Origin: Candidatus Mediterraneibacter excrementavium
GTDB taxonomy: Bacteria > Bacillota > Clostridia > Lachnospirales > Lachnospiraceae
Direction: 5' to 3'
DNA length: 33,389 nt
NCBI GenBank assembly: GCA_019120275.1
Contig: DWVL01000034.1
Location: 1 to 33,389 of the forward strand
Shown: in pieces, positions 1,925-14,749 of the stretch
Layout of the letters: each line of letters begins with the position of its first letter
Numbering within the stretch: position 1 is the first letter of the stretch
Program-made: the position numbers and the translations under genes
The notes under the pieces: model-generated
What the model saw: only the letters and a program-made list of their open reading frames with translations
What the model was told of the DNA's origin: nothing
Databases searched by the model: none

Positions 1925-2356
1925 ATGGAATATTCTTTTCACTACCTTATCATGGCGCAGCAGGCGCTCTTTCAGAAGGAACTTCTCGCCCGGCTTAAGG
2001 ACACCGACCTGACCAGCGGCCAGCCAAAGATACTGGACTATCTGGCTGATCATGACGGCGCCAGCCAGAAGGACATCGCGCAGGGCTGTCATGTCGAACC
2101 CGGCACGCTGACTACACTGCTGAACCGCATGGAAGAGATGGATCTTGTAGAACGCCGCATGCTGAACGGCAACCGCCGGAGCTATCATATTTTCATGACA
2201 GAAAAAGGGAAAGCGCACGCTGATCTGACACAAACGGCATTCAAAGAACTGGAAGAAACAGCATTTCACGGCATAACCGCAGAAGAACAGGAACAGTTCA
2301 TGCACCTCTTTGAACGGATCTTTGAAAATACACTTGCACATAACGAAAAGGACTGA
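1925..2356 (+). CDS. MarR family transcriptional regulator
   Basis: A 143-aa protein of normal length for the family. It has the winged-helix core: a recognition region around residues 40-75 (QPKILDYLADHDGASQKDIA, then PGTLTTLLNRMEE) followed by the wing with RRMLNGNRRSYHIFMTEKG. Helices at both ends would form the dimer interface. The ATG at 1925 follows AAAGGAGA. The gene has its own promoter and palindrome upstream, and its stop codon overlaps the first retained base of the truncated YczE gene, so MarR and YczE were probably co-transcribed. The ligand is unknown; control of the adjacent membrane protein is the simplest guess. Confidence 0.9.
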   Translation: MEYSFHYLIMAQQALFQKELLARLKDTDLTSGQPKILDYLADHDGASQKDIAQGCHVEPGTLTTLLNRMEEMDLVERRMLNGNRRSYHIFMTEKGKAHADLTQTAFKELEETAFHGITAEEQEQFMHLFERIFENTLAHNEKD

Positions 2357-2952
2357 TCACCAAAGCAAACCTTGGCACTTCGCCGATCTCCTCAATCCCT
2401 TACGTGCTCAGCCTGAACTTCCCGTTTACGCTGGGACAGTTCACTATCGCATTCAGCCTGCTGCTGATCCTGATCCAGCTTGCGATCCTGCGCAGGAATT
2501 TCAAAGCGGAGCACGTACTGCAGATCCCGATCTCGATCCTGTTCGGCTGGTTTATCGATCTGACTATGGGGATGCTTTTCTTTGTCAGACCGCACGGCTA
2601 TATTTCCAGTCTGATCTATCTTCTGACCGGCTGTCTGATCCTGGGATTCGGCGTGTATACCGAAGTCCTGGCAAATGTAGCCATGCTGCCGGGTGAATCT
2701 TTCGTCCGCGCCGTCTCTTCCACGTGGAAGACCGAATTCGGCACAACAAAAGTCGCCTTTGACGTATCCCTTACCGTGATCGCCGCTGTACTCTCACTCG
2801 TTTTTGCAGGACGGCTGGACGGCGTCCGGGAAGGAACCATCATCGCGGCGCTTCTGGTCGGCTTCATCGCAAGACTGATCGGACGGAAACTCTCCTTCCT
2901 GGAAGAAAAACTGTTCAGTTCATCCCGCTTTTCTCCGCCTCGAGCCTGCTGA
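2356..2952 (+). pseudogene. YczE-like membrane protein, 5'-truncated
   Basis: The translation from 2356 opens with ITKANLGTSPISSIPYVLSL, the hallmark sequence of the YczE/YitT-like membrane family, and carries on through several hydrophobic segments to a stop at 2952. In the relatives I know, about 20-25 residues (a start codon and the first membrane helix) come before this point. Here the reading frame upstream hits a stop at 2341 within the marR 3' end, with no start codon or ribosome site between. The first possible start, GTG at 2404, falls inside the conserved region and has no Shine-Dalgarno sequence. I read this as a deletion that removed the 5' end. Rescue by frameshifting from marR is possible but unlikely. 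The 3' end overlaps the convergent DUF2812 gene by 38 bp. Confidence 0.7.
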
Positions 2953-3436
2953 TCACTTTCTGCATCTTGAACGCCGCTCTGCCGCAGGCCGCTGTTAAAA
3001 CAGCGATCAGCACAGCGAATCCCCAGGCGATCCCAGTGCCCGTAACCCCTCCGATCACTTCTACCAGAAAGCAGATCATCTCCAGCGCGATCACGCCCAT
3101 GAACATCTTCAGTATCTTCCGGTAATGTCCGATCATGGACTCCGTGTCCGTATACAGTTCGAAAGGGCCATCCGCCGCCCGCTTCCTCAGGATGATCCAG
3201 AACCCCCATAGCGCAACAATCTCGATCCCCAGGTCTGCCATCAGTTCCCGATACTCATCGCTGACATGATAAGCGTGGTCTCCAAAGTCGATCTGGTAGA
3301 TCCACTCCCCTTTCCCGCATTTCTCAAAGCTGTAAAATCCGGCAAAAAATCCTTTCAGTGCCCAACCGTCCGACGCCATCCGGTTCAGCCATTCCGTCTC
3401 CGGATCTTTATCAAAATATAACCGGAATCTGATCAT
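2915..3436 (-). CDS. DUF2812 domain membrane protein
   Basis: A 173-aa protein. The N-terminal half has the DUF2812 pattern: FRLYFDKDPETEWLNRMASD, a GWALKGF segment, then FEKCGKGEWIYQIDF. Two predicted membrane helices lie near residues 110-150, after a short basic stretch. I start at the ATG at 3436 because AGGAGG is 8 nt upstream; the GTG at 3445 would touch that motif. It follows padR by 13 bp and is surely co-transcribed. PadR/DUF2812 pairs recur in Firmicutes, which suggests the PadR protein controls its own operon including this protein. Its biochemical role is unknown. Confidence 0.8.
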   Translation of the reverse strand: MIRFRLYFDKDPETEWLNRMASDGWALKGFFAGFYSFEKCGKGEWIYQIDFGDHAYHVSDEYRELMADLGIEIVALWGFWIILRKRAADGPFELYTDTESMIGHYRKILKMFMGVIALEMICFLVEVIGGVTGTGIAWGFAVLIAVLTAACGRAAFKMQKVISRLEAEKSGMN

Positions 3437-5744: not shown

Positions 5745-6932
5745 TTACAGATATTTCTTTAATGCGTCAACTTTGTCCAGTTTTTCCCACGGCAGATCCA
5801 GATCCGTGCGTCCGAAGTGTCCGTACGCCGCTGTCTGCTTGTAGATCGGCCTGCGCAGGTCCAGCATGCGGATGATGCCCGCCGGACGGAAATCAAAGTT
5901 CTCTCTTAAGATCTCCACCAGTTTCTCATCGGACACCTTGCCGGTCCCGAATGTATTTACGGAAATGGATGTCGGATGCGCCACGCCGATGGCATAGGAC
6001 AGCTGGATCTCGCACCGCTTCGCCAGTCCCGCCGCCACGATGTTCTTCGCCGCGTAGCGAGCCGCATAAGCCGCAGAACGGTCTACTTTTGTACAGTCCT
6101 TTCCGGAAAATGCCCCGCCGCCGTGACGCGCCATGCCGCCGTACGTATCAACGATGATCTTACGTCCGGTCAGGCCGCTGTCGCCGTGCGGTCCGCCGAT
6201 CACGAACCGGCCCGTCGGATTAATGAAAAATTTAGTCACCTCATCGGTCATGCCTTCCGGGATCACCACGTCAAATACATGCTTCTTAATATCCGCATGG
6301 ATCTGCTCCTGGGTCACATCCGGATCGTGCTGGGTGGAAAGCACCACCGCATCCAGTCGTTTCGGCATATGGTTCTCATCGTACTCAACGGTTACCTGCG
6401 TCTTGCCGTCCGGACGGAGATAAGGCAGCGTGCCGTTCTTTCTCACTTCAGTCAGACGGAGTGCAAGTTTATGCGCCAGTGCGATCGGATAGGGCATATA
6501 TTCCTCCGTCTCATCGGAAGCGTAGCCGAACATCATACCCTGGTCGCCCGCGCCGATAGCGTCGATGTCATCCTCGGACATGGTGTGTTCTTTCGCCTCC
6601 AGCGCCTTGTCAACGCCCAGCGCGATATCCGCCGACTGCTCGTCGATGGTCGTGATCACGCCGCAGGTGTCCGCGTCGAACCCGAATTTCCCTCTCGTAT
6701 ATCCGATCTCGCGCACTGTATCGCGCACGATTTTCGGGATATCCACATACGCCTGTGTAGTGATCTCTCCCATAACCATGACCATACCGGTCGTACAGCA
6801 TGTCTCACACGCCACGCGGCTCATCGGATCCTGCTCCATCAGCGCATCCAGGATCGCGTCAGAGATGGCATCGCACATCTTATCCGGATGGCCTTCTGTA
6901 ACTGACTCAGACGTAAACAATAACTTCTCCAT
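5745..6932 (-). CDS. metK: S-adenosylmethionine synthetase
   Basis: A 395-aa cytosolic enzyme making S-adenosylmethionine from methionine and ATP. It starts [21 protein letters not shown] (the GHPDK loop) and contains [12 protein letters not shown] and the phosphate-binding GGAFSGKD, all family signatures. The ATG at 6932 follows AAGGAGAG; an in-frame extension to 7022 runs through the untranslated leader and is not used. It is a single-gene unit controlled by a SAM-I riboswitch and its terminator (7041-7183), so high SAM should shut it off. Length is normal and all key motifs are present. Confidence 0.98.
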
Positions 6933-7040
6933 GTAAACTCTCCTTTCCGCCGGGTTCCCCGGCATGACTTTCTCTTCGGACCGTCTGTCATGCGTCAGTC
7001 CGGATCTCCCCGCCGCCCGCATGAAACATGAAATAAGAAA

Positions 7041-7083: not shown

Positions 7084-7183
7084 CCTCTTATTGTTCGATC
7101 ACTCGCTCAGGTTGGCACCTTCCTTGTCAGGGGTTGCCGCAGCTTCACAGATCCTTTGTATCTCCACTGCTCTGAATAAGAGA
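7084..7183 (-). ncRNA. SAM-I (S-box) riboswitch aptamer
   Basis: Read on the minus strand, the closing P1 stem pairs CTCTTATT (about 7175-7183) with AATAAGAG (about 7085-7092). Between them are the S-box landmarks in order: a CAGAG segment, GATCTGTGAAGC, CGGCAACC, then AAGGTGCCAACCTGAGC. It precedes metK, a standard SAM-I target, and is followed by a terminator. SAM binding should favour termination. Boundaries are approximate to a few bases. Confidence 0.92.
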
Positions 7184-12591: not shown

Positions 12592-12594
12592 CTT

Positions 12595-12639
12595 CAGTTT
12601 GGGACGTAGTAAAATTGAATTTTACTACGTCCCAAACTG
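12595..12639. repeat. 45-nt near-perfect palindrome, possible mobile remnant or terminator
   Basis: A 22-bp inverted repeat with a single-base centre; arms 12595-12616 and 12618-12639, outer ends CAGTTTGGGACG and CGTCCCAAACTG. It sits between convergent map and radical SAM genes and could end both transcripts. The stem is longer than a usual terminator, and a second GTCCC follows at about 12651-12655, so it may derive from a small palindromic repeat. A short stem around CAGGCAT/ATGCCTG overlaps the radical SAM stop codon at 12660. Confidence 0.75.
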
Positions 12640-12659
12640 ACTTTTGCCCTGTCCCTAAA

Positions 12660-13259
12660 TCAGGCATAATGCCTGACTCTTAAATTGATGCCCATAGATT
12701 CCGCCAGTTTCCGGCTGGCTTCTATATCTTTTTCCGGTAGCACGTCAACCACAGTAAAGCGTACGTCCGGTATCTGCTTCGCACATTCTGCCGCGAAATC
12801 CAGCATGCCTTCAAAAGCATGGTCGAATTTCGGCCGTGTTACAGCTTCGTACTCTTCCGCTGTCGGCGCATTCAGACTGATCGATACGCAGTCCACGGCC
12901 TGCGCCAGTTCCGGGACCACATCCCGGCCATGATAGAGATTGGCCAGTCCGTTGGTATTCACGCGGATCCCGACTCCGTATTTCTTCTTTGCATACTGCG
13001 CCGACCGGATCAGGATATCCAGCGCACAGGTCGGTTCGCCATAGCCGCAGTACACCAGTTCATCGTAACCTGTAAAATCAAAATCATCCAGAGCTGCTGT
13101 CACTTCTTCCAATCCCGGATCTGTTTTATGCCAGAGCGTATCCGCCGAATCTCCCACACTGTCCTGATGGCTGCGGATGCAGAATGTGCATGCACAGTCG
13201 CATTTATTTGTCAGATTTACATATACCTGGTTTTTATAAGTGTACAAAATATCTGCCAT
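12660..13259 (-). CDS. Small radical SAM protein (S-component-linked)
   Basis: A 199-aa radical SAM protein. The iron-sulfur motif is C20-x3-C24-x2-C27 within NKCDCACTFCIRS, with an extra cysteine at 22. It is followed by YCGYGEPT (SAM-binding GGE-like motif), IRVNTNG and VSISLNAP, which belong to the radical SAM barrel. It is unusually short and lacks any C-terminal cluster domain. It resembles what I recall as the TIGR04100 group, often found with a small membrane protein (TIGR04002), which is exactly the gene 27 bp upstream. The substrate is unknown. Being in line with a pyridoxal kinase, a role in vitamin B6 or a related cofactor is possible (inference). Confidence 0.85.
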   Translation of the reverse strand: MADILYTYKNQVYVNLTNKCDCACTFCIRSHQDSVGDSADTLWHKTDPGLEEVTAALDDFDFTGYDELVYCGYGEPTCALDILIRSAQYAKKKYGVGIRVNTNGLANLYHGRDVVPELAQAVDCVSISLNAPTAEEYEAVTRPKFDHAFEGMLDFAAECAKQIPDVRFTVVDVLPEKDIEASRKLAESMGINLRVRHYA

Positions 13260-13286
13260 TCTATCTTTCCTTCCTTTCCCCGGCCC

Positions 13287-13805
13287 TTACTGTATTCCGA
13301 GCAGCATCCGGATCCGCGTATTCGCGTGTGAGCGTTCCAGCAGGACCGCTGCAGCGTAAAACAGCACCGCACTTCCGCCCGACTGGATCAGGCTCCCCGC
13401 CAGGGACATCAGCGGCGCCGCAAAAGACCCGAAGAGCAATCCCTCCGCCACGTAGTAGCCTGCCGCCGAGATAACCAGAGCGATCACCGGAGCCGCCATG
13501 TTCCGTGCACTCAGAAGTTTCCCGCTCTTCTCTGAAAAAGGAAGGACGATCAGCATTTTGATGATAACGGTTGCCGGCATCCACATGGGCGCCGTCAGCA
13601 GATCCGCCAGCCCGCCTCCGATCGCCGCAGCCGCCAGAGCATATGGCCTTGGAAGGAATACGGCGGCCAGATAGATCAGCACGTCTCCGAAATGGATATA
13701 GCCTCCGTTTGCCCCATACGGGATATGACAGATATACGCAGTCATAACCGCGATCATAGCCGCGAAAATCCCGGTTGTAACAATTTTAAGTGTACGATTT
13801 CGCAC
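13287..13805 (-). CDS. ECF transporter S-component-like membrane protein
   Basis: A 172-aa integral membrane protein with about five to six hydrophobic helices. Its N-terminus, IVTTGIFAAMIAVMTAYICHI, and the GGYIHFGDVLIYLAAVFLP segment are typical of ECF-type substrate-binding (S) components; GGGLADLL fits the same fold. It likely corresponds to the TIGR04002 group. The start is GTG at 13805, preceded by GGAGATGG. No energy-coupling subunits (EcfA, EcfT) are here, so it would use shared ones. With pyridoxal kinase upstream and radical SAM downstream, a B6-type vitamer or its precursor is the best guess for the substrate, not proven. Confidence 0.82.
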   Translation of the reverse strand: MRNRTLKIVTTGIFAAMIAVMTAYICHIPYGANGGYIHFGDVLIYLAAVFLPRPYALAAAAIGGGLADLLTAPMWMPATVIIKMLIVLPFSEKSGKLLSARNMAAPVIALVISAAGYYVAEGLLFGSFAAPLMSLAGSLIQSGGSAVLFYAAAVLLERSHANTRIRMLLGIQ

Positions 13806-13873
13806 AAAACCATCTCCTCTCTTTTCCGCATTTCACATTTATCTGAACGTCTGTCTGATCACACATCTGATCC

Positions 13874-14749
13874 TCAGGCGCCCGCCAGCCGGTTCTTCTC
13901 TCCCAGCATCCACAGATACTGTTCATATTCCACCCCGTCATTTCTCGGCACACCGTCCCGGACCGCATCTTCGATCGCCCGCTCGATCATAGCGCCGGCC
14001 AGCGCCATACTGTCCGAAAGACGGTCTCCCCGGGCCCTGCCTGCCGCCACAACGGACGCAAACAGGTCACCGGTTCCGGAATAACTGTCGCCGATAAACG
14101 GAAATGCCGCGAATGCGGTTCCTTCCTCTGTCACTGCCAGGTTTCCCATCATCTCGCGTCCGTCCGTTTCTTCTCTGTAACGGATCCCCGTGACCACCGC
14201 CTCTTTCGTTTTTCCCGTCATCAGCTCCCTGGCCATCTCCTCCGCCGCGGTAATGATCTGTTCCTTCCTGCGTATTTTCTCTGTCATCCGGCAGTCTCTG
14301 TCTGTCAGCAGGCACAGCTCCGTAAGATTCGGCGTAATAATATCCGCCCGCGCAGTCAGTTCTTTCATCTCCGATTCCATACGGGACGTAAATACCGGAT
14401 ATCGGACGCCATTGTCTCCCATCACCGGATCCACCAGCAGAAATGTATCTTCTCTGCAGAAGATATCCAGAAACTCCAGCACTTTCCGGATCTGATGCTC
14501 TCCAGATATGAATCCGGTATAGATGCCGTCAAAATGAACATCCATCTTCTGCCATTCTCTGGTAATATTCTCCATCCGGTCTGTATAATCATCATAGTAA
14601 TAACAGGGATATCCCGTCTGGGCGCTGAGTATCGCCGTCGGCAGCGGACAGGGCTGGACCCCCATTGCCGCGACCGCCGAGATCGCTGCTGTCAGCGAAC
14701 ATTTCCCAAAACCGGACAGATCATTGATCACCGCTATTTTCTTCGTCAT
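13874..14749 (-). CDS. pdxY: Pyridoxal/pyridoxamine kinase
   Basis: A 291-aa ribokinase-fold enzyme that phosphorylates vitamin B6 vitamers for cofactor salvage. The N-terminus KKIAVINDLSGFGKCSLTA is characteristic of the PdxK/PdxY group. Further on, LVDPVMGDNG, ADIITPNLTEL and the C-terminal DSYSGTGDLFASV (catalytic aspartate in GTGD) are all present. Its start is the ATG at 14749 after AAAGGAT. It is the first gene in line with the S-component and radical SAM genes (gaps 68 and 27 bp), so the three probably form an operon. Confidence 0.93.
   Translation of the reverse strand: MTKKIAVINDLSGFGKCSLTAAISAVAAMGVQPCPLPTAILSAQTGYPCYYYDDYTDRMENITREWQKMDVHFDGIYTGFISGEHQIRKVLEFLDIFCREDTFLLVDPVMGDNGVRYPVFTSRMESEMKELTARADIITPNLTELCLLTDRDCRMTEKIRRKEQIITAAEEMARELMTGKTKEAVVTGIRYREETDGREMMGNLAVTEEGTAFAAFPFIGDSYSGTGDLFASVVAAGRARGDRLSDSMALAGAMIERAIEDAVRDGVPRNDGVEYEQYLWMLGEKNRLAGA

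Follow-up and report, generated by a model that had tools for sequence, protein, structure and literature searches.

A probable PdxR-PdxK-PdxU-type vitamin B6 salvage layout extended by a radical SAM enzyme in an anaerobe related to Mediterraneibacter

The stretch of DNA analyzed here (the window, 33,389 nt) comes from a draft genome (G000; 2.16 Mb, 86% completeness) and carries three adjacent genes, predicted to encode a B6 kinase, an ECF S component and a minimal radical SAM (rSAM) protein (Table 1). Three same-strand genes separated by 68 and 27 bp had been described in a sequence-only reading of this DNA, and this arrangement was confirmed on the minus strand, with the gaps at positions 13806-13873 and 13260-13286, respectively. 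The rSAM gene has the S component and kinase genes on one side and a gene reading as methionine aminopeptidase on the other; in the window ORF list, no MocR/PdxR-type regulator gene adjoins the trio and no tatD gene adjoins the rSAM gene. A pattern scan detected one promoter-like site at the trio versus 2.8 expected, no more than chance. The terminator-like stem contains a perfect 16-base inverted repeat, lies where the rSAM gene and the methionine aminopeptidase-like gene converge, and perhaps serves both as a two-way terminator. Elsewhere in the window, a SAM riboswitch (RF00162, 69.4 bits) was found on the minus strand at 7085-7182, ahead of an S-adenosylmethionine synthetase-like gene (5745-7022).

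Table 1. Features of the three-gene locus (positions in the window).
Feature	Position	Strand	Description
B6 (pyridoxamine/pyridoxal/pyridoxine) kinase gene	13874..14749	minus	291 aa, ATG start; NF005491/PRK07105 type
ECF S component gene	13287..13805	minus	172 aa, GTG start; TIGR04002, PdxU2/HmpT-like, predicted B6 vitamer importer
Minimal radical SAM (rSAM) gene	12660..13259	minus	199 aa, ATG start; TIGR04100
Terminator-like stem, 20 pairs	12594..12640	minus	pattern scan only; just past rSAM stop

Family searches gave the kinase its best match in NF005491, "pyridoxamine kinase" (242.1 bits, cut-off 231), along with PF08543 (74 bits), and the closest solved chain is 3mbh (E = 1.8e-48). The name pdxY, which had been given to this gene earlier, was rejected, as the score against NF004398 was 70.8 bits versus a cut-off of 292. 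Matches to the ThiD family were weak, and the score against the HMP-P kinase family was 51.3 bits (cut-off 205). For the other two proteins, the families named in the sequence-only reading were the right ones, with both scores above the curated cut-offs: 218.8 bits against TIGR04002 for the S component (cut-off 120) and 295.8 bits against TIGR04100 (rSAM_pair_X) for the rSAM protein (cut-off 262). The rSAM protein also scored above the cut-offs of PF04055 (52.2 bits, cut-off 29.5) and of the TatD-associated family TIGR04038 (206.8 bits, cut-off 129.7), with TIGR04100 the higher of the two specific matches. Its nearest named relative is from an uncultured Mediterraneibacter (91%; the records compared may lack those closest to the window).

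By both sequence and fold, the nearest solved relative of the S component is HmpT/PdxU2 of Lactobacillus brevis (4HZU), with 19-23% identity. The acid, Trp/Tyr, Tyr and Gln positions of the HmpT pocket are kept in the TIGR04002 S component, whereas His84 of HmpT is replaced by an invariant lysine (Lys83, 63/63). The ligand of HmpT was originally guessed to be HMP, and mass spectrometry detected pyridoxamine extracted from the protein (PMC4860826). The window trio also fits the description of PdxR-PdxKU loci as those in which a B6 kinase gene adjoins a PF07155 S component gene. We predict that the S component imports a B6 vitamer. EcfT/CbiQ family matches were found in the same genome, fitting the shared module of Group II ECF transporters, and an ORF beside EcfT reads as an ABC ATPase.

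The AlphaFold2 model of the rSAM protein (mean pLDDT 92.1) comprises a 199-aa core without an extra domain, in agreement with the minimal fold noted from the sequence, and its fold matches span the superfamily, with NifB first and the PFL-AE and viperin cores also matched. The CX3CX2C cysteines are C20, C24 and C27, invariant in 46/46 aligned rows, and there are two extra cysteines, Cys22 and Cys71. We examined both across 195 aligned family members, comprising 69 B6-linked proteins (S component and/or kinase nearby), 47 TatD-adjacent proteins and 79 remaining ones. Cys71, which precedes GYGEP, is present in 195/195 rows. Cys22, inside the cluster loop (CxCxCxxC), is present in 69/69 B6-linked rows and in 50/79 remaining rows, including those of five TatD-near proteins from kin of Ruminococcus flavefaciens in the named set; in the class sample, Asn22 takes its place in 45/47 TatD-adjacent rows. 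The Cys22 proteins fall mostly in one part of the tree, so this pattern is partly one of descent. Judged by its sequence, the window protein is a member of a larger family that is partly linked to TatD; it exceeds the TIGR04038 cut-off but has no tatD beside it and carries Cys22 rather than Asn22.

We scanned named genomes for the arrangement using the best 80 of 579 confirmed rSAM loci, a selection that favors sequences closely related to the query. In 48 of these best 80 of 579 loci, the rSAM gene is accompanied by both an S component gene and a kinase gene, always in the same orientation, no more than 2 kb upstream of it and with the kinase first. Because it recurs in this way, the arrangement is not due to chance, and the earlier suggestion that the pair should be found beside a B6 kinase held for these 48 loci. 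Among the rest of the best 80 of 579, three have the kinase only, three the S component only (two with a regulator), one a regulator only and five tatD, while 20 have none of these within 3.5 kb. A MocR/PdxR-like regulator of ~432 aa is encoded at 22 of the best 80 of 579 loci, divergently at 21; the GntR and Aminotran_1_2 domains of the MocR layout were present in 2/2 regulators scanned, and the other 20 were assigned by likeness. At one locus without a kinase or S component nearby (L065), the regulator gene directly faces the rSAM gene. MocR-type PdxR regulators control pdxST, pdxK and pdxU and mark B6 loci (PMC5320631). Counting against a role in B6 metabolism, one clade of the named set (clade B, 23 rows) has no B6 neighbors except at L070; its rSAM proteins exceeded the TIGR04100 cut-off in 4/4 cases scored. 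In Ruminococcus flavefaciens and its kin, the rSAM gene is near alanine racemase-like and branched-chain aminotransferase-like genes, both encoding PLP enzymes (L076, L082, L084, L085, L087, L092, L093, L104, L106 and L108).

In the window genome and 60 relatives (61 genomes), TIGR04100 was over the cut-off in 12, and one more genome scored 238.6 bits. The kinase gene was found at all 13 of these rSAM-positive loci and the S component gene at 12. G002 keeps the rSAM gene without the S component gene (L150). The order at the G040 locus (L013) is S component, rSAM, kinase, and the kinase gene there (2088-3335) has a long repetitive, low-complexity stretch mid-frame.

A class-wide sample of 393 genomes yielded 115 rSAM loci, 15 trio-type, 47 TatD-adjacent and 53 without B6 or TatD neighbors. 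Many of the 47 tatD loci (L199, L203 and others in L180-L294) have a metG-tatD-rSAM stretch with yabE/ksgA-like genes, named from the starts of the ORFs. A B6 kinase was present in 34/42 genomes with a Cys22-type rSAM protein, 41/73 with the other type and 119/277 without an rSAM protein; the difference between the first and last groups (p = 4e-6) persisted when the 15 adjacent cases were omitted (19/27, p = 0.008), in both tests with genomes treated as independent. TIGR04002 was over the cut-off in 19/393 genomes, with an rSAM gene nearby in 12/19; two of the other seven have a kinase gene beside the S component gene (L296 and L297) and five have neither. In these five (L298-L302), the S component genes lie beside unrelated genes. 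Among the matches listed, an rSAM gene was near 10/12 kinase-adjacent S components of the TIGR04002 type versus 1/7 below the cut-off (G356 with, and G133, G199, G221, G332, G458 and G491 without; Fisher p = 0.006), a comparison of small numbers with positions hand-matched across tables. What the rSAM gene seems to follow is thus the TIGR04002-type S component, not the B6 kinases as a whole.

We also searched for the enzymes of B6 supply. Neither PdxH nor PdxJ was over the cut-off in any of the 61 genomes (0/61 each; controls were found), with 12 genomes giving 20-29 bits for PdxH versus a cut-off of 180. True PdxS (E < 1e-100) was present in 9/61 and in 0/13 rSAM-positive genomes (p = 0.18); we took two matches of 27.6 and 28.5 bits, one in the rSAM-positive genome G040, for remote relatives and did not count them. 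Loci from the best 80 of 579 led to 45 named genomes, and in these intact PdxS was found in 2/27 trio genomes (L063 and L068), 3/14 clade B genomes and 0/4 others (L065, L070, L074 and L078); among the trio genomes, L038 has a broken PdxS remnant and a 27.1-bit match in L060 was set aside. In the class sample, PdxS was present in 4/15 trio-type, 23/47 TatD-adjacent, 37/53 context-free and 64/277 rSAM-less genomes, so that its frequency with the trio is no lower than background (4/15 versus 64/277, Fisher p = 0.76). The three sets may share genomes; two named contigs (L031 and L037) are as long as contigs found in the relatives. The gap in B6 biosynthesis that the sequence-only reading had proposed to look for was therefore seen in 13/13 relatives and 25/27 named genomes, while 4/15 trio-type genomes of the class sample have PdxS; that reading also held that the link would fail if the pair were as common in B6 makers, and the class-sample frequencies neither clearly bear this out nor dispel it. 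We predict that trio genomes are often, though not always, auxotrophs. Against a B6 role, 18/25 context-free copies of the Cys22 type are in PdxS-positive genomes, where PLP is made directly. More broadly in the class sample, rSAM genes without B6 neighbors are strongly enriched in PdxS-bearing genomes (60/100 versus 64/277 for genomes without an rSAM gene).

These data point to the known PdxR-PdxK-PdxU salvage layout, extended by an rSAM enzyme, in an anaerobe related to Mediterraneibacter. The trio is probably a B6-salvage unit in which the rSAM protein acts on a B6 compound, given the gene order, the regulator, the S-component specificity and the likeness of the pocket. The B6 link that had been suggested for the pair is upheld by the adjacent kinase in most kept loci, the HmpT/PdxU2-like S component and the regulator in 22/80 loci (best of 579). 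In the proposed pathway, for which we infer both the transported vitamer and the regulation, the S component, together with a shared EcfA/EcfT module encoded elsewhere, would import an unphosphorylated B6 vitamer, and phosphorylation at the 5' position by the kinase would trap it. The MocR/PdxR-like regulator belongs to a type known for sensing PLP and probably controls the unit in many related loci.

The rSAM enzyme would act on the imported vitamer or its phosphate. As a tentative proposal for the reaction, it may catalyze the O2-independent oxidation of pyridoxine or pyridoxamine (or their phosphates) at C4' to give pyridoxal (or PLP), by abstracting a hydrogen atom from C4' and handing on the electron; on the way from pyridoxamine to pyridoxal, imine hydrolysis would follow. 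We favor this guess because PdxH, which carries out the same net reaction, was not over the cut-off in any of the 61 genomes; these relatives lack PdxH, yet the importer resembles a pyridoxamine carrier. PdxH is an unrelated FMN enzyme and needs O2 as well as FMN. Known rSAM dehydrogenases provide precedent for a C4' oxidation; most have auxiliary clusters (SPASM domains), and DesII is a precedent without one. The rSAM protein of the trio has no auxiliary cluster domain, which counts against the C4' proposal, as do the genomes of the genus that lack both an rSAM gene and PdxS and the PdxS-bearing genomes with a lone rSAM gene. A Bacillus subtilis pdxST mutant is rescued by pyridoxal, and formed PLP from pyridoxine once supplied with E. 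coli pdxH (PMC6522883). More speculative still is the idea that TIGR04100 fills the place of PdxH in anaerobes, with Cys22 and/or Cys71 catalytic, and defines a radical-based branch of B6 salvage in gut Clostridia.

Other explanations can be weighed against a B6-acting rSAM enzyme in a salvage unit. The S component might import a modified vitamer (methylated, glycosylated or otherwise blocked) and the rSAM enzyme might remove or alter the modification and thereby make the compound a substrate for the kinase. The tracking of the rSAM gene with TIGR04002-type S components (10/12 versus 1/7 among the matches listed) is in line with an enzyme tuned to what is imported, and the invariant Lys83 in place of HmpT His84 (63/63) hints at a ligand other than that of HmpT. 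However, the analysis identified no such compound, TIGR04002 occurs beside a kinase without an rSAM gene (G130 and G158) and without either in 5/19 genomes, and rSAM and kinase genes occur without the S component gene in 3 of the best 80 of 579 named loci and 3/115 class-sample loci. We regard this explanation as quite unlikely, and, since PdxH was over the cut-off in 0/61 relatives, an enzyme that oxidizes an ordinary vitamer seems at least as natural a guess. Salvage of the thiamin-type pyrimidine HMP instead of B6 is suggested by the first name of HmpT, the relatedness of PdxK-like and ThiD-like kinases and the weak ThiD-family matches of the window kinase. That the kinase is over the cut-off for B6 kinases, with only 51.3 bits versus 205 for HMP-P kinase, that MocR-type PdxR regulators mark B6 loci (PMC5320631), and that pyridoxamine was found in HmpT by mass spectrometry (PMC4860826) make this highly improbable.

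Alternatively, the rSAM protein could be a general TatD-linked, TIGR04038-like enzyme with a metabolite- or nucleic-acid-related housekeeping role, of which a derived branch is carried with B6 genes without acting on B6. The TatD-adjacent loci (47/115 in the class sample) are basal on the drawn tree, which is midpoint-rooted, and 53/115 copies have neither B6 nor TatD neighbors. Moreover, TatD-adjacent members have nearly all invariant residues in common with the B6-linked ones, so the two groups could catalyze one common, non-B6 reaction. This explanation does not readily account for the way the rSAM protein is repeatedly found with B6 kinases from different lineages, TIGR04002 and MocR-like regulators, nor for the genome-wide co-occurrence of the kinase with the Cys22-type rSAM protein. 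The residue difference (Cys22 in 69/69 versus Asn in 45/47) also argues against it, though Cys22 mostly marks one clade and also occurs in five TatD-near copies of the named set. We consider it unlikely.

A related PdxR-PdxKU locus is known in Streptococcus pyogenes (PMC11619246). It resembles the trio in having a kinase followed by a B6 S component/permease, a MocR/PdxR regulator (in many relatives) and reliance on imported vitamers; unlike it, the window trio adds the rSAM gene, has a TIGR04002/HmpT-like S component and lacks an adjacent PdxR. Queuine salvage in gut anaerobes offers a precedent for pairing an S component with an rSAM protein, as the queuine lyase QueL, an rSAM enzyme, is found with an ECF importer; this system differs from the trio in the family of its S component and is not known to include a B6 kinase. 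In the open literature searched, with most subscription papers and preprints outside its scope, TIGR04002 and TIGR04100 had no full-text mention and nothing on the pair joined an rSAM protein with B6, ECF or TatD, which is no proof of novelty. A 2023 survey of PLP pathways cites three characterized transporters, does not contain "radical SAM" in its main text and cautions that its own analysis lacks the reliability needed to detect missing salvage genes (PMC9997740). Anaerobes that import pyridoxine or pyridoxamine must form the 4'-aldehyde, yet PdxH was over the cut-off in 0/61 relatives, and the trio suggests an oxygen-free step from scavenged vitamin B6 to its active form in some oxygen-shunning gut bacteria. 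A link between B6 salvage and the two nameless families TIGR04002 and TIGR04100 provides a candidate that can be tested directly, and it matters for which vitamers can be shared among gut bacteria.

An rSAM gene over the cut-off is present in 10/37 same-genus genomes, the window genome included, and an NF005491-type kinase (E < 1e-50) in 36/37. At least 23/27 rSAM-less genomes keep the kinase gene at the same site, between or beside alpha-amylase-like and/or methionine aminopeptidase-like genes, according to ORF lists that include several drafts; hence the kinase is the resident gene, and the S component/rSAM pair is a module that has been gained or lost next to it. These 27 genomes also lack PdxH, and 24/27 lack intact PdxS, so the rSAM step is either dispensable or has another route. 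In line with gain and loss, the trio label requires at least seven changes on the rSAM tree and at least eight on the kinase tree (quick trees with SH-aLRT support only, the drawn rSAM tree midpoint-rooted), and the link thus was made, lost or remade repeatedly. One trio is in a metagenome-assembled genome labeled Bacteroides (L079) that groups with clostridial sequences on both trees, and this label probably is wrong.
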